Position numbers and translations under genes: made by a program. Shown piece after piece: positions 1,354 through 13,845 of a stretch of DNA of 64,000 bases. The notes under the pieces were generated by a model, which saw only the letters and a list, made by a program, of their open reading frames with translations, was not told the origin of the DNA and searched no databases. This DNA is from Rhizobiales bacterium IMCC20636 (GTDB taxonomy: Bacteria; Pseudomonadota; Alphaproteobacteria; Rhizobiales; GCA-2746425), in the NCBI GenBank assembly GCA_016865015.1, contig CP018226.1, positions 2,015,001 through 2,079,000 on the forward strand. The letters run 5' to 3'. How positions within the stretch are numbered: position 1 is the stretch's first letter; the number at the start of each line of letters is the position of its first letter.

Positions 1354-1793
1354 CCCCACCACATTCTGGGGGGGCGCTTTGGCTGTCGATCATTCCAGCG
1401 CTGGGAAAGGCTCCTTGCCTTCCAGTTCTCGCGCCGCCTGCACCGGTCCGTAGTTCATCAGCGCAAGCGTGCCATCACCGCACCGTTGAGACTGGCGGGA
1501 AATCTTGCGGCAACATCAGCCAAGCCATCCCGCCACCGGCCATGTGGAGGATGGCATTCATGATCTCACGCATGTCCGTAGTGCGTGGCTGACCGACGGG
1601 GCGGGTCGGTGGTACGAATGGTGAAAGAACAGACCACTCGTTGTCAGTCAAATCGGTTGGATAATGATTGAAATCGCGTCTATGCTCAGTGCGGGTGATA
1701 TCAGCCCAAGGCATCATGGTCTCCATCGAATTTTCATCAATCCGATGGAGACACATCCCACTGATATCACTGAACAACTTTCAAATCAGACTC
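1354..1793 (-). mobile_element. IS5-family remnant (degenerate transposase)
   Basis: On the minus strand an N-terminal IS5-type transposase piece runs from METMMPWADITRTEH (about 1725) through DLTDNEWSVLSPFVPP and DMREIMNAILHMAGG to DFPPVSTVR (about 1478). After frame damage a degenerate middle piece is recognisable as FPSAGMIDSQS (about 1387-1420), matching the SPxAGVIDSQSVKTTESGG region of intact relatives. The catalytic C-terminal half is missing. The outer end, read inward GAGTCTGATTTGAAAG, resembles the end of the IS at 2479-3361. The broken side abuts the truncated SDR copy at 1353/1354. Confidence 0.8.
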
Positions 1794-1808
1794 TAGGGCC
1801 CGGACTCT

Positions 1809-2482
1809 TCACAGCCACCATACGACCGATGCGATGAGGCACAGTGCAGCCATATAGGTTTTGAGTTTCCAGTCATAGCGGGTTGCAATTCTTCGGAAGT
1901 CCTTGAATCGGTTGAAGGTACGTTCAATGATATTTCGCTCACGATAGAGCTTCTTGTCATAGTGATATTGGATTTTGCGATTTGAGCGTGGCGGAATGAC
2001 TGGAATAGTGCCACGCGCGCTCAACCAGTCACGCAATGCCGCGCTGTCACCCTTGTCAGCGATAAGGTGTGCTGCAGGTGGCATGGCTGCCAGGCATTGA
2101 TGCGCTGCCTTGTGATCACTGGTATTTCCTAGTGTTATCGCCAGAACACACGGCCTTCCACGTCCATCGGTCACGCAGTGGATTTTAGTCGTTCTTCCGC
2201 CTTTTGATAAGCCGATACCATGAGCCAAGCCCCCCCCCTTTTTGCACCACTTGAGGAGCGATGCGCTTTGACGATTGTGCTATCGATCATGAGCCTGTCC
2301 GGAACATCTTTACTACCTGCAAGTGCGGAGAAAATATCTTCCCATATGCCGCGTTCTGCCCAGCGTTGGAGCCGGTTGTACAGCGTCTTCCTGGGACCGT
2401 GATCAGCAGGAGCGTCAACCCACCGGCCACCGGAGCGGATGACATGGACAATTCCACTCAAAATGTTTTCGTTTAATATCAT
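1809..2482 (-). pseudogene. IS427-type transposase, split and frameshifted
   Basis: Frame A (to about 2171) reads GIVHVIRSGGRWVDAPAD and LMIDSTIVKAHRSS. Frame B (1809-2228) reads GGRTTKIHCVTDGRGRP, LIADKGDS and RNIIERTFNRFKDFRRIATR. Together they give a complete DDE region. The frames meet at an A5G8 run (AAAAAGGGGGGGG on the coding strand), where a -1 slip would fuse them, as is known for IS427-type elements, so this shift is probably programmed. The N-terminal ~50 codons are cut off by the IS at 2479-3361; their start survives at 3362-3408. The transposase is therefore not made. Confidence 0.8.
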
Positions 2483-3294
2483 TGGGTTGCGATGCGCCTG
2501 GCAAGTTGCTGAACGGAAGCCATGAAGAGCCAGGCGGTGGCACTGGCGATTGTTCGCTCAAAGTCCTTCGCGAGGCGGCGGTTTCGGTTGAGCCATGCAA
2601 AGGTACGTTCGACGACCCAACGCCGGGGTACGAGCTCGAAGCCTTTTGCTGTGTCCGAACGCTTGACGAATTCGAAGGTTCACTTGCCGAGTTTCGGCCC
2701 GGCATAACTGCCATCGGCGAACACATGAAGCAGCCAAGGGAAGGAATGGCGGATTTCCTTGAGGACGGACGGAGCGCCATCACGATCCTGAATGTCGGCC
2801 GTATGAACGATGGCGCCGACGAGGAAGCCGCAAGCGTCGGTGAGTATGTGGCGCTTGCGTCCCTTGATCTTCTTGCCCGCATCATAGCCGGAAACTCCGC
2901 CACTTTCCGTGGTTTTGACCGATTGGCTGTCAAGCACGCCAGCGGTGGGTGAGGCTTCGCGACCCTCAGCTTCGCGCGCCGCCATCAGCAAGGTGTGGTT
3001 GATCGTCTGCCAAAGTCCGCTGTCGCGCCAAGCGTAGAAATAATGCTTCACGGTGGTCATCGGCGGGAACAGGCTTGGTGGCAGCATCCGCCAGGCGATC
3101 CCGCCGCGCAAAACATAGAACATCGCCTCGACGATCTGCCGGTAACCCCACTTCGCAGGACGCCCGCGTGCTTTGCGTGGCGGCAAAAGAGGCTCGATCA
3201 GCGTCCATTCGGCATCTGTCAAATCGCTTGGCAGCCGGCAATATTTTCGGGCATATTGTGCTCGGGTGATATCAGTCCACATCGTTGTATCCAT
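2479..3294 (-). pseudogene. IS5-family transposase with internal stop
   Basis: Starting at MDTTMWTDITRAQY, the frame reads LIEPLLPPRKARGRPAKW, GGIAWRMLPP, AGVLDSQSVKTTESGG (first catalytic Asp), HVFADGSYAGPKLGK (second Asp) and then a TGA at 2680-2682. The same frame continues with [36 protein letters not shown] (catalytic Glu) and ends [13 protein letters not shown]. Relatives have a Trp at the stop position (GKWTxE), so a TGG-to-TGA change is likely, plus a small deletion just before it. The enzyme is probably dead. Confidence 0.85.
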
Positions 3295-3361
3295 GGTTGG
3301 TTTCGCAACCTCATGAATCACAACCAACTGATATCACTCAACTTCTTTTTCGGTCAGGCTC
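2479..3361 (-). mobile_element. IS5-family (IS1031-like) element nested in the IS427-type element
   Basis: Its outer end at 3361 reads inward GAGCCTGACCGAAAAAGAAG, resembling the end of the remnant at 1793. It is flanked by ATTAA on both sides in the reading direction of the host element (about 3362-3366 and 2474-2478). The other terminal repeat is not recognisable: the element appears to end at the transposase stop, so its 3' end is probably deleted together with ~60 bp of the host IS. It carries one transposase gene with a nonsense codon. Confidence 0.7.
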
Positions 3362-3408
3362 TTAATACGAGCCCATTGTGCATCGGAAAACCAAAACAAA
3401 TCAGACAT
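3362..3408 (-). pseudogene. 5' end of the split IS427-type transposase
   Basis: The coding strand reads MSDLFWFSDAQWARIK, the standard N-terminus of IS427-type transposases, with a GGAGG-like Shine-Dalgarno just upstream (rc of 3415-3420). It is separated from the rest of its gene at 1809-2482 by the nested IS. Confidence 0.75.
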
Positions 3409-3483
3409 CTGCAATCCTCCAAAAAAGAACATTGAATCACATAAGAAAACAATTGGGAATTCCGTTAAAGGGTCTGGACCCTA

Positions 3484-3907
3484 AGGGCTCAATATCATGC
3501 GCTGATTACTTCACCATACGATGATTACTCAGAATTCTTTTATAAAAAATCGAATGTTTAGAAAATTTTTTGCAACTTTCAATGAATCTCTTTGTATCAG
3601 AATACGATACGAAAAACACCCCAGAATCTACATACTTTCTGCATAATTGTTGTTCCTGTGATCATCGTGATCGGAGCTTTGGGTAGGTATATTTTTTATT
3701 TTAAGAAAATTGCAATTATGAAATTTAGTAGAACAGTTGACTCGAAGGTGAGTTATGGTATAATATGGTGTTATAAATAAATTTTTTATATTGAGTTTTA
3801 TTTTTTATTTTTTGAAGTTTAATGTAATAAAAAAAGTAAATAAAATTATATCTCATAATTGTGAGACATTTTTTATATGTTGTTGATTTTGGTGAGAGTT
3901 AATTTAA
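3484..3907. other. AT-rich region upstream of the protease gene
   Basis: This stretch differs sharply in composition from its neighbours: 3781-3840 holds only 6 G/C in 60 bases. No gene is convincing. A 34-codon ATG frame at 3582-3686 contains CCSC but has no Shine-Dalgarno. The promoter of the protease gene presumably lies here, but A/T runs make any -10/-35 call arbitrary. GAGAG at about 3894-3898 is a plausible Shine-Dalgarno for the ATG at 3908. The composition suggests that the locus came from a lower-GC source or that this is an H-NS-like (MucR/Ros) silenced regulatory region. Confidence 0.5.
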
Positions 3908-5896
3908 ATGACCAAAACAATAAAAATCGGTGTTGTTGACGGAATCCCCGACATTGAGTGTTCCATATTCGACGGAACAACAATAGAGGTAGAGCAGGCT
4001 ATGGTTCCTGAGGGGGGAGGCGCCCCCGATGTTCACGGCACTGAGATCTGTAGTGTTATATTCAAGAATGACGGGCCTGACGCGCTAGGCTGCGGCGTCA
4101 AAGGACTCGTCCTTCCTATCTTCTTCAAAGACCGTTCCGGCAACATTCTGCGGACAGCTTCTCAGGTTGACATCGCAAGAGCCCTGACAATTGCTGCGGA
4201 AAGAAATGTGTCGATCATTAACGTCAGCGCAGGTCAAAGGGCATCTACGATCGAAGGTGGACGGCACCTCGAAGACGCTTTGGCTCTATGTCAGGAACGG
4301 CGTATATTGGTTGTAGCTGCCGCAGGAAACGATGGCTGTGCCTGCCTGCATGTGCCTGCTGCAGTGCCAACTGTGCTTGCTGTCGGCGCAATGAACAACA
4401 AAGGCGAACCTCTCAGTGCCAGCAATTGGAATCGGGCGTATTTAAATAACGGTATCATGGCATCAGGTGTCGATATCGAAGTTGTTGGACCAAGCAATAA
4501 GACCGCGCGTCGGTCAGGCACAAGTTTTGCTGCGGCCGCGGTGTCAAGAATAGCGGCTCAGCTCCTTACCACTTCAGACAGATCTGGCTATAGGCTCGAT
4601 CCGCTTGATATCCGTGAAATACTACTGGAAACGGTCGACCCATGTGTGCCTGGTGCCGGGGAAGACTGTGCAAAAGTGCTCGCAGGAAGAATGAATGTAG
4701 AGGCAGCGTTTGCGCGGCTTCACGAAGTAGGATCGGCTCACAACTCAGTATCAAAAAGCCTGGAAACTGACCAAGCCTGTTCAACAGATGGAAAGACGAA
4801 GCAAATGGAAGACACCGACAGCCTGCCAGAAATGATCAATGTTGATGAAATCGTGAGTGAGGTTCCAGACGTAATGTCGCCAGACCACCATACCAGCCCA
4901 CCGTCCGTTCAACCTGCGCCTTTTGCTGAAGAAATCAACGTAAAACCAACAGGAGCACACCAAATGCAAACCTCTCAACCGCCAACCCAAGGCGTAAGTC
5001 GGCTTTCAGTCGATCAGTCTGATTGCAACTGTGGTGGAGACGAGGACGAAGCGAGTCAATCCTCCGTGTTGCAGTCTGCTTGCGGGTGCGGTGGAGCTGA
5101 CAACCCGCAAATTGCGTACGCATTGGGTTCGCTTTGGTTCGATTTTGGAAGTGAGGCACGGTATGATGCGATTGTGCAGGCCATGGGCGATTCCGTAGCC
5201 GCGAATACCCCAAGTGACCTTTTTGGGTTTCTGTCCGAGAACTTGGAATACGCGCCAGGGATCACGTTTATCCTCATGCAAGACCAAATCCCACTGTACG
5301 CAATCCAACCAAGTGGCCCCTTTGCGCTGCGCGGGTATGAGGCATTGCTGGAAGGCCTAACAGCAGCCCTTGATGACCCAGCATCCATAAACCGCGTCGC
5401 TATCCCGGGGTACTCTACGGGCACTACCCGCTTAATGAACGGCATGGTGTTGCCTATTATCTATCCGGACTTGCGCGGCATGTTCCAGTGGAGGGCACCA
5501 GAGCTTGTCCAAGCTGCGAAAATGGCCGCAAATGTCGAGGATATGGACGACGATCCTATCTTTAACTTCCTTGTCCGAGTGTATGATGAGTTGCGCAATC
5601 TCGGTATGGCGCCCGAAGAGCGCGCATTGAACTTTGCTGCGACCAACGCCTTTCAGGCGGCGACCGCATTTGGTGATGCCTTGGCTCGCAAAATGGAACT
5701 TTTCGGCATTGAGGTAAGCAAAAGTCCGATTTGTCGGCCTGATTCAGATTGCTGGGACGTGAAACTGCAGATGTTCGATCCGGAGAATGATCGTCGCGCG
5801 GGACGCGTCTACCGCTACACCGTCGATGTAAGCGAGACACTGCCGGTCACGGTCGGCCCAATGCGGGCATGGTCAGCGCCGCTTTCGGCAATTTGA
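3908..5896 (+). CDS. PatA/PatG-type subtilisin-like peptide maturation protease
   Basis: A 662-residue S8 serine protease fused to a PatG-type C-terminal domain. Residues ~5-270 are the protease, with Asp11 (VVDG), His43 (DVHGTEICSVIF), oxyanion Asn141 (AAAGNDGCACLHVPAA) and Ser206 (SGTSFAAA). The AAGNDGCxCLHVPAA and LAVGAMNNKGEPLSASNW blocks are signatures of cyanobactin PatA/PatG proteases. A poor, acidic linker (~275-395) contains two CxCGG motifs (CNCGG at 373, CGCGG at 392). Residues ~400-662 match the PatG C-terminal domain: YALGSLWFDFGSEAR, NLGMAPEERALNFAATNAFQ, SPICRPDSDCWDVKL and FDPEN. Family members cut leader peptides and, in PatG, macrocyclise cores. There is no signal peptide, so it acts in the cytoplasm. 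It lies 123 bp before a Cys-rich peptide gene on the same strand. Protease or macrocyclase activity is inferred. Confidence 0.9.
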   Translation: MTKTIKIGVVDGIPDIECSIFDGTTIEVEQAMVPEGGGAPDVHGTEICSVIFKNDGPDALGCGVKGLVLPIFFKDRSGNILRTASQVDIARALTIAAERNVSIINVSAGQRASTIEGGRHLEDALALCQERRILVVAAAGNDGCACLHVPAAVPTVLAVGAMNNKGEPLSASNWNRAYLNNGIMASGVDIEVVGPSNKTARRSGTSFAAAAVSRIAAQLLTTSDRSGYRLDPLDIREILLETVDPCVPGAGEDCAKVLAGRMNVEAAFARLHEVGSAHNSVSKSLETDQACSTDGKTKQMEDTDSLPEMINVDEIVSEVPDVMSPDHHTSPPSVQPAPFAEEINVKPTGAHQMQTSQPPTQGVSRLSVDQSDCNCGGDEDEASQSSVLQSACGCGGADNPQIAYALGSLWFDFGSEARYDAIVQAMGDSVAANTPSDLFGFLSENLEYAPGITFILMQDQIPLYAIQPSGPFALRGYEALLEGLTAALDDPASINRVAIPGYSTGTTRLMNGMVLPIIYPDLRGMFQWRAPELVQAAKMAANVEDMDDDPIFNFLVRVYDELRNLGMAPEERALNFAATNAFQAATAFGDALARKMELFGIEVSKSPICRPDSDCWDVKLQMFDPENDRRAGRVYRYTVDVSETLPVTVGPMRAWSAPLSAI

Positions 5897-5948
5897 TCGC
5901 AAGGAATTGCATGGGCGAAACTCAGTTTCGTTTCGTCTGTGTAAAGCC

Positions 5949-5967
5949 GCCGGTTTCTTAAACCGGC
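5949..5967 (+). promoter_or_regulatory. Stem-loop between protease and first peptide gene
   Basis: GCCGGTTT-CTT-AAACCGGC is a perfect 8-bp stem with a 3-base loop, 53 bp after the protease stop and 53 bp before the peptide start. It is kept in the second repeat. No T-run follows, so it is more likely an mRNA processing, stability or attenuation element setting different levels of protease and peptide than a simple terminator. Function is inferred. Confidence 0.5.
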
Positions 5968-6019
5968 ATTCAATGGCAGATCTCGACATGAGGTCCGCTT
6001 TCAACATGGAGATAGCACT

Positions 6020-6148
6020 ATGAAATCCCCAATCCAAGCAGCTCCCGCACTGCGCGCCAACGTCTCAAGCGTACAGACAACAATGAAGCAATCTGGCTGC
6101 TGTGTACAAGTTGCCGGCGTATGCCTTGTCAGCAGCCCGATCTGCTAA
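6020..6148 (+). CDS. Cys-rich RiPP-like precursor peptide 1
   Basis: A 42-residue peptide whose ATG is preceded by GGAGATAGCACT, a good Shine-Dalgarno. It starts MKSPIQAAPALRANVSSV and ends with the block SGCCVQVAGVCLVSSPIC. The Cys residues are 27, 28, 35 and 42, giving CC-X6-C-X6-C with a C-terminal Cys. It is not an annotated family I recognise. Its position after a PatG-type protease, its short length, conserved N-terminal part and variable C-terminus (see 7000-7128) fit a leader-core precursor. The leader/core border is not visible; just before or after SGCC or AGVC are candidates. Modification could be heterocyclisation, thioether or disulfide formation, or cyclisation; none is shown. 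Confidence 0.8.
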   Translation: MKSPIQAAPALRANVSSVQTTMKQSGCCVQVAGVCLVSSPIC

Positions 6149-6346
6149 ACAGCGCTTTATCGCCCTAAACCCGGCCCTCGCAACACTTCTTCTTGCGAAG
6201 TTATCTGCACTGCGGGGGCCACAAAGTCGATTGCGCAACCTCAATGGTTGACAACATAACACATGCAGTGTTTCGGCCCGTAACGGGGTAGAGTAGACAA
6301 ACCATCCAGGAATAGCTCTATCCCAGAGCCTCAGGAGATGCGATAA

Positions 6347-6595
6347 ATGATTAATCTCCCCCGCCAATCCCCTCCACGAGAACGCAAGTTCATGCAGCCT
6401 ATAACAGGTCCTTGTTGGATTCCAGAAGTCCATATAATTCATGCTAGACGACAATTTGGGGCGGATATGGTCAATAGACTAGAAGGATCAACGCGAGCAA
6501 GGCTAAGCCGTGAAGCGTTCAGAAAAGTCGCAGCGCGGAGAAATAAAAAGTTCGACAATCCATGTTTAGTTCAATTAAAGACCTTCTCCGTCTAA
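6347..6595 (+). CDS. Small hypothetical protein of the peptide locus
   Basis: An 82-residue ORF with a clear Shine-Dalgarno (CAGGAG, 11-12 bases before the ATG). It is basic (for example RLSREAFRKVAARRNKKF) with two Cys (GPCWIPEVHIIHARRQFG; DNPCLVQLK). I do not recognise it. Evidence for coding comes from the second repeat, where a decayed twin keeps the reading LSAKAVKEVSTRRNKKL against LSREAFRKVAARRNKKF here despite many base changes. It may be a leader-binding, immunity or modification factor; this is speculation. A +1 shift near its 3' end would continue it into the open frame at 6579-6746. Confidence 0.45.
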   Translation: MINLPRQSPPRERKFMQPITGPCWIPEVHIIHARRQFGADMVNRLEGSTRARLSREAFRKVAARRNKKFDNPCLVQLKTFSV

Positions 6596-6746
6596 CGTTT
6601 TTGAAGAATTTATAAATAGTTTAGTTGACTCAACATACGTTGATATGCCCGTGACGAGGTCAGGAAAGGCTTTAGTAGGGGAGGATTTATTTATATCTAG
6701 AACGGAAAGTACTCCGCAAGCTCATGTTTATTGTTATAGTTCATAG
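6579..6746 (+). pseudogene. Possible frameshifted continuation of the 6347 ORF
   Basis: This open frame (+1 relative to the 82-residue ORF, overlapping its last 17 bp) has no start of its own. It reads like protein: NVFEEFINSLVDSTYVDM, PVTRSGKALVGEDLFISR and ends VYCYSS. If joined, the product would be ~135 residues. A frameshift mutation has probably split one gene, but chance cannot be excluded because no second copy of this part survives. Confidence 0.3.
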
Positions 6747-6928
6747 TTCCGCGAATGCGGCAGTCAGATATGCTTTGCAAGAAAATACCCTGCGGACCAA
6801 TTTGATGAGTAAAAAAGTGCAAATAGCCGCCAACGCAATACTGTCGATCCAATGCAGGCGTGGTCAGCGCGGCTTTCGGCAAGAAATTGCACGGGCAAAA
6901 CTCAGTCTCGTTTCGTCTGTGTAAAGCC

Positions 6929-6947
6929 GCCGGCTTCTTAAACCGGC
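6929..6947 (+). promoter_or_regulatory. Stem-loop before second peptide gene
   Basis: GCCGGCTT-CTT-AAACCGGC, the counterpart of 5949-5967 exactly 980 bp downstream. One base change (T to C) leaves a C-A mismatch in the stem, so the structure is slightly weakened here. Confidence 0.45.
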
Positions 6948-6999
6948 ATTCAATGGTAGATCTCGATATGAGGTCTGCTTTCAACATGGAGATAACACT

Positions 7000-7128
7000 A
7001 TGAAATCCCCAATTCAAGCAGCTCCCGCACTGCGCGTCAACGTCTCAAGCGTACAGACAACAATCAAGCAATCTGGCTGCTGTGTACAAGTCGCTGGCGT
7101 ATGCGTTGTCTGGCACCCATGGTGCTAA
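7000..7128 (+). CDS. Cys-rich RiPP-like precursor peptide 2
   Basis: A 42-residue paralogue of the peptide at 6020, with the same Shine-Dalgarno (GGAGATAACACT). It starts MKSPIQAAPALRVNVSSV and ends SGCCVQVAGVCVVWHPWC. Differences from peptide 1 are A13V, M22I, L36V, S38W, S39H and I41W. The first 35 residues are almost unchanged, while three of the last five change radically, and Pro40 and all four Cys (27, 28, 35, 42) stay. This conserved-leader, variable-core pattern is typical of RiPP families served by one processing enzyme. Its downstream flank is broken by the IS630 insertion 75 bp after the stop, but the coding frame is intact. Confidence 0.8.
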   Translation: MKSPIQAAPALRVNVSSVQTTIKQSGCCVQVAGVCVVWHPWC

Positions 7129-7285
7129 GCAGCACATTTCGCACTGAAAATGGCCCTCGCAATGCTAATTCTTGCAGAACTGTCTGCACTGCGGGAGCCA
7201 CTAATACCAACGGTGAGATTTTCTGACTCTATTGGGATTCCCAAATTGCTTTTGGTCTGATTCAGTGTGGCAAAGGAGATTTGCC

Positions 7286-7810
7286 ATGGGATCAGCAGTT
7301 CCACTTCGTACTGATTATTCAGCGACAGAGCTTCGTCGATTGGCCCGTCGTTGCAGCGACAACAGGCAGATACGCCGGTTGCTGGCCTTGGCGGCGGTCT
7401 ATGAAGGTATGAATCGGACGCAGGCAGCTCGGATTGGCGGGATGGACCGCCAGACGCTGCGCGACTGGGTTCATCAGTTCAATAAACACGGCCCTGATGG
7501 GAAGACCAATGCGAAAGGAGCCGGTCGTCCGCGTCGGTTGAACGATGAACAGATGCAGGAACTGGCACAAATCGTCGAGACCGGGCCAGATATTGAGGTG
7601 GATGGTGTGGTACGCTGGCGGCGTATAGACTTGGTGCGGGTGATGGCCGAGCGGTTTGGTGTGGAATGCTCCGAACGGTCAATGTCGGACTATCTGGCCG
7701 AATTGGGCTTCTCCAACATCTCCGGTCTCCCAAGACATTCCAAGCAGGATGCCGGGGTGATCGATGCGTTCAAAAAACTTCGCCAACACGCTGGCAGCGC
7801 ACGTAGCTGA
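7286..7810 (+). CDS. IS630-family transposase, first frame (orfA)
   Basis: The start at 7286 is chosen for its Shine-Dalgarno AAAGGAG, 7 bases upstream. The product reads MGSAVPLRTDYSATELRRLA, then a helix-turn-helix domain (NRTQAARIGGMDRQTLRDWV), a linker GPDGKTNAKGAGRPRRL and a second winged region. The DDE domain is in the next frame, entered near FKKLRQ at an A6 run (about 7771-7776), which needs a +1 (or -2) shift. This may be programmed, as in many two-frame IS630 elements, or a mutation. Confidence 0.8.
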   Translation: MGSAVPLRTDYSATELRRLARRCSDNRQIRRLLALAAVYEGMNRTQAARIGGMDRQTLRDWVHQFNKHGPDGKTNAKGAGRPRRLNDEQMQELAQIVETGPDIEVDGVVRWRRIDLVRVMAERFGVECSERSMSDYLAELGFSNISGLPRHSKQDAGVIDAFKKLRQHAGSARS

Positions 7811-8285
7811 TCTACCGAAAGGCAGACCGGTGGAGATATGGTTCCAAGACGAAGCGCGGATTGGCCAAAAGAACGGCCAGGTGCGCGTCTGGGCGCAAAA
7901 GGGGACCCGCCCACGGCTGCCTGCCGATCAACGGTATGAAAACACCTATCTGTTTGGCGCGATTTGTCCCAAACGCGGCACTGGAGCGGTACTCGTCCTG
8001 CCAAGGGCCAATACTGAAGCGATGCAGTTGCATCTCAACGAGATCAGCAAATACGTTGCGCCCAAGGCTCATGCTGTTGTGCTCATGGACCGGGCCGGAT
8101 GGCACAGCACCGGAAAGTTAAAGGTGCCAAAAAACCTCACCATCATCCTGCTCCCATCGAAATCGCCCGAACTCAACCCGGTTGAGAACATCTGGCAATT
8201 TCTGCGCGCAAACTACCTCTCAAACCGCGTGTTCAACGACTACAACGACATCGTAGATGCAGCCTGCGATGCGTGGAATGCATAG
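7764..8285 (+). CDS. IS630-family transposase, DDE domain (orfB), prematurely stopped
   Basis: This is the catalytic part: WFQDEARIG (Asp), AVVLMDRAGWH (Asp) and KSPELNPVENIWQFLR (Glu). It ends DACDAWNA at a TAG (8283-8285), but the same frame continues IDKPSTITSIGMRDWAHL to a TGA at about 8341, the usual C-terminus of the family. A point mutation has therefore removed the last ~19 residues, and the transposase may be weakened or inactive. Confidence 0.8.
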   Translation: MRSKNFANTLAAHVADLPKGRPVEIWFQDEARIGQKNGQVRVWAQKGTRPRLPADQRYENTYLFGAICPKRGTGAVLVLPRANTEAMQLHLNEISKYVAPKAHAVVLMDRAGWHSTGKLKVPKNLTIILLPSKSPELNPVENIWQFLRANYLSNRVFNDYNDIVDAACDAWNA

Positions 8286-8490
8286 ATCGACAAACCGTCA
8301 ACTATCACATCTATAGGTATGCGGGACTGGGCGCATCTGTGAAAAGTCAGAAAATACCGCCGGTGGTATAAGACGACTGCGTAGCCTCAATAGTTAACAA
8401 CATGACACACGAAGTGTTTCGCCCCGTGGGGATAAAGTAGACAAACCACTCAAGATTAGCCGCATCCCAGTGATCCGAGAGACGCGATCG

Positions 8491-8574
8491 ATGAACAATC
8501 TTACACGCAAGTGAGCCTGAGTGCTAAAGCAGTGAAGGAAGTCAGCACGCGGAGAAACAAGAAGTTAGCTTCTA
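8491..8574 (+). pseudogene. Decayed twin of the small ORF at 6347
   Basis: An ATG at the equivalent position starts MNNLTRK and stops after seven codons. Most of the gene is deleted. The remaining part reads LSAKAVKEVSTRRNKKLAS in one frame, matching LSREAFRKVAARRNKKFDN of the unit 1 ORF. It ends where IS debris starts (GCAGGCTGTTGAAAAAGT). Confidence 0.55.
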
Positions 8575-8880
8575 GCAGGCTGTTGAAAAAGTATCTTGCT
8601 GGGCCTTTAGAACGGCTTCATCCCTGAGATCGTAGGTGGGCTCGACTTCAAGTGTACCATCCTTAAGGAGTTCGGCTGTTCCTGAGCCGCTGACATCGTC
8701 CACTTCTTCGAACCCAGCCTCGGTGAAGAACACCATGGAACGGCTATACTTAAGATCAAGGCCTGCCTGCATGGCTCCGAATGCGATTTCGTCATGTCCA
8801 TCTTCGTGAATGATAATCATTGCGGGCTTTACCAGATCGAGATGGATCCAGTCCCAAAGATCGGACACGGTGTTACGCTG
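8572..8880 (-). pseudogene. Hypothetical protein fragment
   Basis: A minus-strand frame reads AMIIIHEDGHDEIAFGAM, then SMVFFTEAGFEEVDDVSG, SGTAELLKDGTLEVEPTY and LRDEAVLKAQQDTFSTAC. The composition is that of a real protein and it resembles small hypothetical proteins seen on alphaproteobacterial plasmids, from memory. Its end lies in an IS-like end (ACTTTTTCAACAG) and its upstream side runs into the transposase remnant, so it is a chimeric or truncated relic. Function unknown. Confidence 0.4.
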
Positions 8881-8884
8881 GCGT

Positions 8885-9225
8885 CTAATCAATCGGCAGT
8901 CTGCAGGCGTGCTCATGGGGGCTCGCGAACAGCTTGGGCAGGCGCACCAGATTATAAACCATAGCTGCAAAGGTAAAGGCAACGCCAACGCGATCAAGAT
9001 CTCTGAAGACTGTCTTATCCTGGCCTGCGATGGTCTTGATCCAGCCGAAGGTCTCCTCAATGCGTTTGCGCAGACGCTGGCTCATCCTATAGCCGCGATG
9101 TTGGGTTGTGTGTCCGTCGATAGCAGACCTGCGCCCGCTCGTGTTCTGCGTCCACCCATGGATCGCAGTTCATTGACGAAGTCCTGTGTATCATAGGCTT
9201 TGTTTGCACAGCCGATATTGGCCGG
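8885..9225 (-). pseudogene. IS5/IS1182-type transposase C-terminal remnant
   Basis: On the minus strand GCANKAYDTQDFVNELRSMG, then after a frame change TSGRRSAIDGHTTQHRGYRM and RLRKRIEETFGWIKTIAGQD, ending AAMVYNLVRLPKLFAS. The RKRIEExFGWIKT block is the Glu-containing C-terminal part of a DDE transposase. At least one frameshift and a missing N-terminus make it non-functional. 9226-9330, between it and the SDR gene, holds nothing recognisable. Confidence 0.75.
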
Positions 9226-9337
9226 ACGGTAATAACTTAGTAACATCAATCAACAGTTTGAAACCACAACCCTTAACATTCACATTGAAAACCACAGGTA
9301 AGGCCCAGAGCATCGGTCCAATTCAACACAGTTTGTC

Positions 9338-10126
9338 TCAGTCTTGGCCGTAGCCGGGGATCAGATCGAACATTGCGTCAGCCCGAACGTCGATCAGCTT
9401 GCCGCTTTCGGTAAAGTCGGGAAGCATCAACTGCACGACTTTTTCTGCAATCTCTGCGGGCTCTGGTAATGTGTCCGGGTCTTCACCCGGCATCGCCTTG
9501 GCGCGCATTGCGGTTCTCGTGCCACCAGGATTGATGGCATTCACGCACATCGCGGTCTGACGTGTTTCGCCAGCATAGGTCTTGGCCAGCGCTTCGACCG
9601 CTGCTTTTGATACGGAATAGACACCCCAATAGGGTTTGCACTTCCAGGCTGCGGTAGATGACAGGAAGACCACGCGGCCTGCCTCAGCGTGGCGCAGCAA
9701 TGGGTCGAGCGACCGGACAAGGCGGAAATTGGCGGTTACGTTAACAGCCATCACATTTTCCCATTCGCTGGGTTTGATATGACCCAGTGGGGACAGAATG
9801 CCCAGTATGCCACCATTGGCGACAAGACCGTCGAGTTTACCCCAGCGCTCGTAAATGGCACCGCCGAGGCGGTCAATTGCATCAAAATCCTTCAAGTCCA
9901 TCGGCACAAGCGTTGCAGAGCCACCCTTGGCCTTGATGGCATCATCCAGATCTTCAAGGCCGCCAACGGTTCGTGCCACAGCGACAATATGCGCTCCACG
10001 CTCTGCCAGTTGCAGGGCCGTAAAGTAACCTATGCCACGTGAAGCACCGGTGACGACCATCACCTGTCCTTCGAGCGGTCGTTGGGTTTTTGCTGCCTGA
10101 TCAGAAACGTTGCTGTCAGCCGTCAT
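9338..10126 (-). CDS. Short-chain dehydrogenase/reductase
   Basis: A complete 262-residue classical SDR: NAD(P)-binding VTGASRGIG near residue 27, ANGGILG in place of NNAG, then a Ser (FLSSTAA) and YSVSK catalytic residues. The substrate is not predictable. Its ATG overlaps the purF stop by one base (TGATG), so it is translationally coupled to purF and is the last gene of cvpA-purF-SDR. Its 3' 518 bp are duplicated at 836-1353, and recombination between the copies would delete the island and still leave a complete gene. Confidence 0.9.
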   Translation of the reverse strand: MTADSNVSDQAAKTQRPLEGQVMVVTGASRGIGYFTALQLAERGAHIVAVARTVGGLEDLDDAIKAKGGSATLVPMDLKDFDAIDRLGGAIYERWGKLDGLVANGGILGILSPLGHIKPSEWENVMAVNVTANFRLVRSLDPLLRHAEAGRVVFLSSTAAWKCKPYWGVYSVSKAAVEALAKTYAGETRQTAMCVNAINPGGTRTAMRAKAMPGEDPDTLPEPAEIAEKVVQLMLPDFTESGKLIDVRADAMFDLIPGYGQD

Positions 10127-11570: not shown

Positions 11571-12341
11571 TCAGTTTTCCGGGGTTGCGTTGATGATGCG
11601 TTCTACGTTTCTGGTGTCATCCTGAGGAATCGTTGTGGTTGTGTCGTCCTCAAGATCTGGCAAGTCTTCGCTGTCCTGAATGGTTGAGTCTTCAGGCGCG
11701 GTTGTATCGTCCGCCGGATCCACGCTGCGCAGCGTCCCGGTGGGAGGCGTGCCAGGGGACGATGCACCGGGAGCCGGGACCGGCGAATCCAGATCATCAT
11801 TTGGAAGAACCGTGGCATCAGGTTCGGATTTGCTGCCAAAGAAGTTCGTGATGGTTTCCTGAATATTCTCCGGTAACGCTGCCGTAATACGTCCGCCGAT
11901 TTCCGTGAGAACTGGGAGGGATTTTGCATTCGTTACCCAGGTGGGCCGTTTTTCGCGTTGCACCAGGCCGTTGAACAGCATCAGGGCCACGACCACAATC
12001 AGCAGGCCGCGCAGAGCGCCAAACATAAAGCCCAGAGTTCTGTCGATCGGACCGACACCGCTGTCCAAAATGAAATCTGAAATGCGTATTGTGATAAATG
12101 ACACAAGGATCAGGGTTACGAAGAACACCGCTGCTGCGGATATCGCCTGAGACAACAGATCATTGCCGACATAGGGTTCGACATAAGGGACAAGCAGTGA
12201 GTGAAAAAACAGGGCTGCGGCTGCGGCGGCAATCCACGTTCCAATGGAGAAGACCTCGCGGATGAAACCGCGCATCATCGCCAGAAAGGCGGATATCAGC
12301 ATTACGCCCAGCAGTACTCCGTCCAGAATTGTAATGGACAT
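11571..12341 (-). CDS. cvpA: CvpA family membrane protein
   Basis: A 256-residue inner-membrane protein with about four hydrophobic segments in the first 120 residues (VLLGVMLISAFLAMMRGFIR; AAAVFFVTLILVSFITIRI; GALRGLLIVVVALMLFNGLV). The remainder is a Pro/Asp/Thr-rich hydrophilic tail. CvpA family members precede purF in many Proteobacteria and are linked to colicin V production and envelope homeostasis; the biochemical role is unclear. Confidence 0.88.
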   Translation of the reverse strand: MSITILDGVLLGVMLISAFLAMMRGFIREVFSIGTWIAAAAAALFFHSLLVPYVEPYVGNDLLSQAISAAAVFFVTLILVSFITIRISDFILDSGVGPIDRTLGFMFGALRGLLIVVVALMLFNGLVQREKRPTWVTNAKSLPVLTEIGGRITAALPENIQETITNFFGSKSEPDATVLPNDDLDSPVPAPGASSPGTPPTGTLRSVDPADDTTAPEDSTIQDSEDLPDLEDDTTTTIPQDDTRNVERIINATPEN

Positions 12342-12438
12342 AAGGCAGGCTCCTGGCTTTCTTAATTGACGGTTTGCTTCTTAGCCTGATTATGCTGCAT
12401 TGCCAAATGTTTCCATGGGTTTTCCAGCGATGTCTGCT

Positions 12439-13845
12439 TCAAGTCTCTTTTTTGGGTGCTGAGGCTGCGACACGCGCAACCATTGTTGTCAGATCGGCGA
12501 TGGAGTTGATCGCAATGTCTTTCAACCCGGATGTATTATCCTTTGTTGCCTCGGGGACCGTTGCCAAGGTGAAGCCCAGTTTCTCGGCTTCCTTCAAACG
12601 CGCCTGTGTATGGGTGACTGAACGGATGGCTCCCGACAGGCTGATTTCACCAAAATAGACACTATTCTGGGGCAGAGGTGCACCGGTGAGGGACGAGACC
12701 AGCGCTGCAGCGACTGCCAGATCGGCTGCCGGTTCCACTATTCTCAGGCCCCCAGCGATGTTCAGATAGACATCATTGGCGCCGATTTTCACCCCGCAAT
12801 GGGTCTCCAACACCGCAATAACCATAGCAAGACGGCTGTTATCCCATCCCACGACTGCGCGCCTTGGCGTGCCAAGAGAGGAGGGCGCCACAAGCGCCTG
12901 TATTTCTACCAGCACTGGCCGGGTGCCTTCCATGCCGGCAAAAACAGCCGTGCCAGGATTGTTGGCTTTGCGTTCCCCCAGGAACAGTTCGGAGGGGTTG
13001 GATACCTCACGCAAGCCGCCGCCGGTCATTTCAAAAACGCCGATTTCATCGGTGGGACCAAAGCGGTTTTTGACCGCCCGCATAATGCGGAACTGGTGCC
13101 CGCCTTCGCCCTCGAAATAGAACACGGCGTCCACCATGTGCTCGACAACACGGGGACCGGCAATCTGTCCATCCTTCGTGACGTGGCCAACCAGAATGAT
13201 TGTCGCACCGGTTTTCTTGGCATAGCGAATCATGGCCTGGGCTGACGTGCGGACCTGGGTCACGGTGCCGGGTGCCGAATCAACCTGCGACGTCCAAAGC
13301 GTCTGGATGGAATCCAGAATAAGCAAATGGGGCGGCTCGCCTGCCTCCAGGGTTGTCAGAATATCTTCAACACTGGTTTCAGCGGCCAGACTGACCGGCG
13401 CGTCAGCGAGACCAAGACGGCGGGCGCGCATGCGGACCTGTGCAATGGCTTCCTCTCCGGAAATATAGACAACCCGGCCGCCTGCTTTGGCCATGCGCGC
13501 AGCCGCTTGCAGCAGAATGGTTGATTTTCCAATGCCTGGATCGCCGCCAACCAGAAGAGCGGAGCCGGGCACAAACCCGCCACCGGTGACTCTGTCCAGT
13601 TCGGCAATGCCACATTGAATGCGCGGTGCTTCCGGTGTCTCGCCTGCAAGCGGCACCAATTCCATGATCCGGCCTTTGCCGACCAACCGCTTGGAGGCGC
13701 CACCGATTCCGGAGCCCGGATTCTCTTCAACAATGGTGTTCCAGGCATTGCATGCCTCGCATTTGCCACTCCAGCGGGGCGAAACCGCACCACAGTTCTG
13801 GCAGAGATATTGCAGTTTTTGTTTGGCCAAGGAGAATCCTGTCAA
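12439..13845 (-). CDS. radA: DNA repair protein RadA
   Basis: A 468-residue RecA-like ATPase that assists branch migration in homologous recombination. It shows the N-terminal zinc finger (YLCQNCGAVSPRWSGKCEAC), Walker A (GGDPGIGKST), the RadA-specific KNRFG motif (RAVKNRFGPTDEIG) and a C-terminal Lon-like domain (DVYLNIAGGLRI). Full length. The stop overlaps alr by 4 bp, so the two are likely co-transcribed in the order dnaB-alr-radA-cvpA-purF. Confidence 0.95.
   Translation of the reverse strand: MTGFSLAKQKLQYLCQNCGAVSPRWSGKCEACNAWNTIVEENPGSGIGGASKRLVGKGRIMELVPLAGETPEAPRIQCGIAELDRVTGGGFVPGSALLVGGDPGIGKSTILLQAAARMAKAGGRVVYISGEEAIAQVRMRARRLGLADAPVSLAAETSVEDILTTLEAGEPPHLLILDSIQTLWTSQVDSAPGTVTQVRTSAQAMIRYAKKTGATIILVGHVTKDGQIAGPRVVEHMVDAVFYFEGEGGHQFRIMRAVKNRFGPTDEIGVFEMTGGGLREVSNPSELFLGERKANNPGTAVFAGMEGTRPVLVEIQALVAPSSLGTPRRAVVGWDNSRLAMVIAVLETHCGVKIGANDVYLNIAGGLRIVEPAADLAVAAALVSSLTGAPLPQNSVYFGEISLSGAIRSVTHTQARLKEAEKLGFTLATVPEATKDNTSGLKDIAINSIADLTTMVARVAASAPKKET

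Follow-up and report, generated by a model that had tools for sequence, protein, structure and literature searches.

What does a gene for a cyanobactin-type maturation protease do in an alphaproteobacterium, where it is followed by small cysteine-rich open reading frames (ORFs)? This question is raised by a locus of Rhizobiales bacterium IMCC20636, which we studied within a stretch of 64,000 nucleotides (the window; positions 2015001-2079000 of a single-contig 4.79-Mb genome that is 100% complete). The locus comprises a protease gene of 662 codons (3908-5896 of the window) and two ORFs of 42 codons each, precursor 1 (6020-6148, MKSPIQAAPALRANVSSVQTTMKQSGCCVQVAGVCLVSSPIC) and precursor 2 (7000-7128, MKSPIQAAPALRVNVSSVQTTIKQSGCCVQVAGVCVVWHPWC); these and the other cassette features and motifs of the window given below are on the + strand. 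A preliminary description of this DNA had reported the protease gene and the two cysteine-rich ORFs on the same strand with good ribosome-binding sites, and we confirmed both ORFs and a GGAG upstream of each ATG. Based on the analyses described here, we consider it likely that the locus is a minimal, horizontally moved, PatA-only cyanobactin-related cassette, which would release linear, probably disulphide-rich peptides.

The protein encoded at 3908-5896 matched TIGR03895 (PatA/PatG family cyanobactin maturation protease) with 686 bits, against a cut-off of 421.05, over the entire model (1-606 of 606), and its Pfam domains were PF00082 (Peptidase_S8), PF18047 and PF18065. An S8 domain (residues 4-272) is joined by a linker to a domain of unknown function (DUF; PatG_D plus PatG_C, residues 403-658). 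The PatA structures 4H6V, 3ZXX, 3ZXY and 4H6W matched the window protease at E values of 6.5e-55 to 1.6e-56; 4H6V aligned end to end over the protease domain (residues 4-271, E 1.6e-56), and the PatG DUF structure 4UVQ matched the C-terminal DUF at E 4.1e-56. Asp11, His43 and Ser206, which we take to be the catalytic residues, are intact as first described and fall in motifs aligning with PatA, with an Asp-to-His spacing of 32. By contrast, the PatG macrocyclase 4H6X aligned significantly only at residues 78-269 (E 2.2e-24), and the match to its Asp block was sub-significant (1.3 bits). The distance from the Asp block to the next block is 91 residues in PatG and 52 in the window protease, and we therefore read the macrocyclisation insert of PatG, which is described in a passage of PMC4663559, as absent from the window protease. 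Neither this insert nor a full S8 alignment with the PatG macrocyclase was found. Thus the protease domain did not bear out the earlier label of PatG-type: by these alignments it is a PatA-type, predicted leader-cleaving, protease.

The window protein shares with cyanobactin PatA (4H6V, 3ZXX, 4H6W) and the PatA/PatG DUF (4UVQ) the same architecture, an end-to-end S8 alignment including the triad motifs, and the same DUF. It differs in standing with its peptides only: the window genome has one TIGR03895 match, so there is no second protein of this family that could be a PatG partner. The genome has two PF00082 matches, the other being in a frame of 1818 residues far away. Two further roles considered for the protease were rejected, an antiphage function because PADLOC gave partial S8-domain matches only (E 1.5e-7 and 0.0012) and a phage origin because PHROGs yielded only a partial protease match (E 6.2e-25). 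An AlphaFold model of the window protease with that of locus L037 (two sequences; mean predicted local distance difference test score 37, predicted TM-score 0.35) was too poor and was not used.

Are the small ORFs genuine precursors? Both fit the pattern CC-X6-C-X6-C, with predicted cores GCCVQVAGVCLVSSPIC (6095-6145) and GCCVQVAGVCVVWHPWC (7075-7125), each following KQS. Ten codons differ between the two (four silent changes and six replacements); four of the replacements are at residues 36, 38, 39 and 41, and 3 of 72 bases differ in the leader compared to 11 of 57 in the stretch 6092-6148. The earlier observation that the first 35 residues are nearly constant and the last ones variable was correct in this respect. 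However, the likeness proves nothing by itself, because both ORFs lie in a duplication: 5849-6225, containing the end of the patA gene and precursor 1, is 84% identical to 6840-7204, containing a fragment of the patA end and precursor 2. A search of the genome for further copies of precursor 1 returned the second copy only, plus two matches (E 0.29 and 0.7) that we took as chance. The position of the pair in duplicated DNA speaks for a reading of the short ORFs as chance ORFs, which comparison with other genomes makes very improbable, as follows.

We examined 25 loci with PatA-type genes: 17 taken as alphaproteobacterial (the window, Eilatimonas milleporae and 15 genomes of the window's order or class), five cyanobacterial and three from Streptomyces. 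Eilatimonas was added by a protein scan of genome contigs, and the cyanobacteria and Streptomyces by a plasmid search, in which eight of the ten best plasmid matches were examined (H7 and H9 were left out). A planctomycete locus (L038) was dropped from the count as its match covered 67 residues only. One cyanobacterial locus, L050, is an annotated canonical cyanobactin cluster, and leaving it out gives 24 non-canonical loci (17, 4 and 3, respectively). Within the window's order, 7 of 397 genomes had a TIGR03895 match exceeding the cut-off, and 230 of the 397 had an S8 match of some kind at E 0.001. PF18065 was detected in 2 of 385 genomes drawn from the class, 2 of 398 drawn from the phylum and 8 of 199 drawn from a single family, and in 1 of 5, 2 of 28 and 1 of 17 in smaller draws; the counts include the centre genome or G000 where drawn.

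All 24 non-canonical loci have precursor-like peptides near the PatA-type gene. In 19, at least one same-strand ORF no more than 3 kb downstream satisfied a strict rule, having the motif PxQxxPxxR within 12 residues of its start; in the other five (L042, L044, L051, L054 and L071), we recognized by eye peptides that have a ribosome-binding site and whose motif is either relaxed or extended at the N terminus. Homologous proteases lacking such neighbours, which had been named beforehand as the finding that would speak against a precursor role, were therefore not encountered among these loci. The motif near an ORF start was counted 38 times in the 70,386 nucleotides downstream of the 24 PatA-type genes and seven times in a control of 753,808 strand-nucleotides; by eye, two of the seven were true Streptomyces precursors and three were antisense to precursors. 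In addition, the eight genomes with PF18065 among the 199 of one family were exactly the eight with one peptide type at E 3.4e-7 or better under the same draw settings. Six PatA-less genomes of the 199 had peptide matches at E 9e-4 to 0.008 (one in a frame of 496 residues, one in a frame of 611 residues and four with internal stops), and these were taken as chance, the E line being drawn after seeing them. A search of plasmids with precursor type C gave no match.

The protease genes are damaged or cut in 3 of the 24 loci (L043, L053 and L075). In two of them, L043 (genome G120) and L053 (a Nostoc plasmid), PatA-type genes with internal deletions stand beside intact-looking peptides, and these are probably decaying cassettes.

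Further evidence came from the cores. In the core class SDCCGxGxCC...CVPNIGQC, the nonsynonymous substitution rate (dN) was 0-0.10 and the synonymous rate (dS) 0.49-1.40 in 15 pairs, indicating strong purifying selection; a second class was less tight (10 pairs, dN 0.01-0.29, dS 0.54-2.0, saturated in 3). Purifying selection on the cores argues for translation of the peptides. The first class thereby differs from the cores of classical cyanobactins, which a passage of PMC4603692 describes as hypervariable. The reading of the short ORFs as chance ORFs was rejected on motif enrichment, on this selection and on the co-occurrence of protease and peptide, together with similar ORFs being at the same place in other genomes. 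An encoded precursor with leader and core, as expected of a ribosomally synthesized and post-translationally modified peptide (RiPP), is thus supported by anatomy, co-occurrence and selection. The window precursors were not named by Pfam, NCBIfam, PHROGs or PADLOC (single-peptide NCBIfam matches to geopeptide, ChlP and class C beta-lactamase models were sub-threshold and taken as chance), and the proposal of a peptide-maturation system outside cyanobacteria with an unrecognized type of precursor is well supported.

How would the protease recognize and cut these peptides? We compared 55 peptides chosen by eye, omitting a truncated 29-residue peptide of L043 and N-terminally longer ones of L041 and L071, each of the last two having the leader motif and six cysteines after it. 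PxQxxPxxR was present in 40 of the 55 leaders, compared to 0.15 of 55 expected on shuffling, in a set that was partly chosen by the motif. The cyanobactin peptide NILPQQGQPVIR, which we take to be the start of the PatE leader, also fits the motif. A passage of PMC5108345 describes its use together with a cyanobactin oxidase. At the motif stretch, peptides from Nostoc and Gloeocapsa gave sub-threshold matches to the cyanobactin precursor models TIGR03678 and TIGR04446 (E 0.059 and 0.044). Thus the N-terminal motif is shared with the cyanobactin precursors, PatE and its relatives, and it is somewhat more probable than otherwise that the protease would recognize its precursors through it.

In some of the 55 peptides the junction resembles the cyanobactin recognition sequence II (RSII). 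A passage of PMC10885120 places the cut of PatA-like enzymes behind G(L/V)E(A/P)S, and a loosened form of this site was present in 21 of the 55 peptides (e.g., GIAPS↓DCC, GITPS↓GTN and GIEPS↓FLP, the arrow marking the predicted cut). The pattern [PQ]S[GDASE]C right at the first core cysteine was found in 18 of 55, among them both window 42-mers (KQS↓GCC) as well as peptides from L039 and L065. A homologue of precursor 1 lies at 11287 of L039. Cleavage by the protease would probably take place behind [PQ]S, shortly before the first core cysteine.

Neither LAELSEE, the heterocyclase site, nor AYDG/SYDG, the macrocyclase site, occurred in any of the 55 peptides, each of which has one long cysteine-rich or hydrophobic core, unlike cyanobactin precursors. 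LAELSEE is a conserved leader motif of classical cyanobactins in passages of PMC5460452 and PMC4558948. With the leader motif kept and both sites absent, the peptides keep what PatA could need and do without the sites of absent enzymes. The cyclisation implied by the preliminary description, a PatG-type macrocyclisation, was rejected on the structure alignment, with its missing insert spacing, and on the absence of AYDG.

The search for CC-X6-C-X6-C peptides beside homologues had been suggested earlier; precursor-like ORFs were indeed present, but this pattern represents just one class of core among several. In alphaproteobacteria and cyanobacteria the cores are mostly cysteine-rich and fall into several classes; most Streptomyces peptides are cysteine-poor or cysteine-less, and so is L054. 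The number of cysteines, counted after residue 20, was even (4, 6, 8 or 10) in 39 of 39 cysteine-rich cores, a set that excludes 11 Streptomyces, one cysteine-less and four third-type peptides (see below). When a uniform rule was used, counting after the leader motif in all 55 peptides, 52 were even and three odd (L043_3, L065_4 and L075_1); among 100 random ORFs of like size with at least four cysteines, 75 were even and 25 odd. We lean moderately towards the release of cores that are linear (GCCVQVAGVCLVSSPIC and GCCVQVAGVCVVWHPWC in the case of the window) and whose even cysteines would be paired as disulphides. The cores would stay linear because the window genome has no gene for YcaO (PF02624) and no second TIGR03895 protein.

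The very high and mostly even cysteine content, together with CxC and CC motifs in both the cores and the protease linker, could also be explained if the peptides were metallothionein-like metal-binding proteins that are processed or turned over by PatA, with a CGCGCGG linker binding the same metal. We regard this as quite improbable: the same leader is found on cysteine-poor or cysteine-less hydrophobic cores in three Streptomyces loci (L052, L073 and L074), a variant leader precedes such a core in L054, and the window cores have only four cysteines.

The three Streptomyces loci, all on plasmids, have several mostly cysteine-less peptides, with MPQQAPPIDR as an example of their leaders and GVEAD and GVEAS as examples of their junctions, and a BTAD-type regulator is encoded upstream of their PatA-type genes.

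The linker of the window protease resembles the predicted junctions. By sequence pattern it has two cut-site copies, QS↓DC followed by NCGG (residues 370-373; 5015-5026) and QS↓AC followed by GCGG (residues 389-392; 5072-5083). In other loci the linker has PS↓DCGC (six of eight members of one clade) or PA↓GCGCGG (L044). The pattern [PQ]S[GDAES]C occurred 13 times in 12 of the 25 PatA proteins compared to 0.93 expected in shuffled proteins, and all 13 fall between protease domain and DUF, at residues 353-499 (domain borders not mapped for each protein singly). Linker and precursor types agree in the window, L037 and L065 (QS), in L066 to L071, L049 and L051 (PS), and in L044 (PA). Based on this pattern, we give an even chance to the proposal that the linker copy gates the enzyme, either as a self-cleavage site or as a pseudosubstrate. 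A literature search on PatA autoproteolysis found nothing among the matches listed, the passage of PMC10885120 being concerned with NisP.

The chance that the linker is only a flexible spacer rich in Gly and Cys, resembling the cut-site by coincidence or through inheritance without function, is a little short of even. A spacer would account for the linkers that disagree with their precursors in L039 (QQ), L040 (MS), L041 (AS), L042 (HE) and L054 (SQ), and for the lack of the motif in L043, L053, L073 and L075, three of which are damaged or cut genes. The pattern was, moreover, written after it had been seen, and linkers and precursors of the Q type fall in a single clade (support 100/100 in the protease tree), so that agreement among the Q types is close to one event and there are few independent agreements overall. 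Less easily reconciled with a spacer are the excess of exact matches over shuffled proteins, all of them at linker positions, and the unusual PA↓GC in both the linker and precursor 1 of L044. The linkers of L040, L044, L066 and L068 have two or three successive CxCGG blocks, which are possibly metal-binding.

In addition to these linker disagreements, the post hoc pattern and the single clade, several other points weigh against a PatA-only cassette acting as proposed. The published cut-site is exact in only 2 of 55 peptides (GVEPS↓GCN in L041 and GVEAS↓IVS in L073), and in the window the junction reads KQS. Parity gives a modest signal after grouping of related cores, as 12 clusters at 75% even would give about 0.03. 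Disulphides form poorly in the reducing cytosol, and no transporter or immunity gene was conserved among the neighbours of the 25 loci. A passage of PMC4259220 reports that the PatG DUF did not bind precursor by nuclear magnetic resonance, which argues against the idea that the DUF simply binds the leader. Finally, a YcaO gene lies about 3 kb downstream of PatA, on the opposite strand, in L072 (genome G1283).

The last point bears on the possibility that enzymes from other parts of the genome act on the cores to give heterocycles, thioethers or a macrocycle, as part of a split cyanobactin or other RiPP pathway. YcaO was present in 7 of 16 PatA-bearing genomes searched, close to the cassette in G1283, and absent from the other nine and from the window genome. 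YcaO heterocyclase (D) is usual and not universal in cyanobactin pathways, some of which also lack a heterocyclase. According to a passage of PMC4663559, an active cyanobactin cluster always includes both proteases (A and G) together with a precursor and the B and C genes. We nevertheless consider a split pathway unlikely, given that the window genome, one complete contig, has no YcaO and a single TIGR03895 protein (radical SAM, lanthipeptide and other trans-acting enzymes were not searched for), that LAELSEE and AYDG are missing from all collected peptides, and that there is no widely conserved neighbour.

The neighbours were assessed by clustering 313 ORFs of at least 100 residues, picked mechanically from the 25 loci. 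The sole large cluster was the protease itself (21 loci; in the other four an antisense frame or a deletion had displaced it). The next clusters covered at most four loci each and consisted of antisense frames of the protease, genes shared by members of a single bacterial family, transposases and the regulator that precedes the PatA-type gene in the three Streptomyces loci; a few two-locus clusters across groups included general enzymes as well as the YcaO genes from L050 and L072. Among 21 neighbours judged by eye, with a family search run only for three of L072, several were presumably housekeeping-like (ClpB, GlmS, TrmFO, LepA and RlmN), one transposase-like and two secreted-peptidase-like (L039 and L070), and the rest had no clear likeness or were spurious frames. 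In L072, the YcaO gene, with two neighbours without Pfam assignment (11944-13584 in PatA orientation), is convergent to the PatA-type gene and precursor, and this locus may be a heterocycle-forming cyanobactin-like cluster outside cyanobacteria with a mixed pathway.

How did the cassette come to be in this genome? It lies within about 8 kb (1354-9330) that also contain IS5-type and IS630-type transposase genes and are flanked by two copies of the 3' portion of an SDR gene (829-1353 and 9331-9855), which are 93% identical to each other. The SDR gene is present in all four other genomes examined from the genus, and none of the four has TIGR03895 over the cut-off. Two of them have an uninterrupted purF-SDR-der order, with the der gene end directly beside SDR, which is the empty arrangement; in the other two, der was not within the 1.5 kb examined. 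In the protease tree, bacterial families are intermingled: genomes of families f1, f16 and f24 share the clade of the window protease with Eilatimonas (Kordiimonadaceae), and proteases of another clade occur in f16 and in f24 as well. The best explanation of these observations jointly is that the cassette was inserted and horizontally moved.

Between the two 42-codon ORFs, on the same strand, lies a third precursor-like ORF of 82 codons (6347-6595), which the earlier list of precursors, correct for the two 42-mers, had overlooked. Its product has the leader LPRQSPPRER and the C-terminal stretch NPCLVQLKTFSV. Similar peptides, by eye, are encoded 3' of the PatA-type gene in L039 (11874), L043 (10631) and L065 (11449); this class has the leader motif and a conserved C-terminal block, e.g., NPCLVQLKTF, without a [PQ]S cut-site. 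Possible roles for it would be a second product, an immunity factor or a regulator. A probable relic of a third-peptide unit is at 8370-8627, where 8370-8501 is 75% like 6224-6357 and the frame is broken beyond. The promoter-like TTGACT-16-TATAAT upstream of patA (3737-3764) is a consensus match only and a weak candidate, since three such sites were found and 4.1 were expected in shuffles.

How does the locus relate to known systems? Compared to a cyanobactin pathway, it has the A-type N-terminal protease with its DUF; a G-type protease, LAELSEE, AYDG/SYDG and YcaO were not found. A leader, a cysteine-rich core and a protease are also combined in the disulphide-rich bacteriocins with a dedicated leader protease, from which the present loci differ in having no conserved transporter and a protease of the cyanobactin type. 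According to a passage of a 2015 review (PMC4663559), cyanobactin clusters had been identified only in cyanobacteria. A cyanobactin peptidase gene in the alphaproteobacterium Roseomonas oryzae, thought likely to make a cyanobactin-like peptide, is described in a passage of PMC8776678 that holds no precursors, motif or distribution. A cyanobactin peptidase in an alphaproteobacterium is therefore already known; the precursors, the leader motif outside canonical clusters and the linker cut-site copy are apparently new, as no description of them was found in the portions available of the literature matches listed. What the released peptides would do is the weakest step of our scheme, and we suggest only tentatively, with some doubt, an antimicrobial or signalling product.

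It is a rather unlikely combination that stand-alone PatA cassettes are widespread, that PxQxxPxxR is a true recognition element of the PatA family and that the protease's own cut-site gates the enzyme. If this were true, stand-alone PatA cassettes would represent cyanobactin biosynthesis in a minimal and possibly ancestral state, and the purpose of the conserved DUF and linker would be explained. PxQxxPxxR also occurs in cyanobactin leaders, and the window system is stripped to protease, DUF and leader motif, without YcaO or PatG. Because the motif and the DUF are kept and the recognition sites of the missing enzymes are absent, the roles of both are directly testable here. The system also provides a search handle for such small peptides, which in the annotated plasmid records examined were called hypothetical or not listed.

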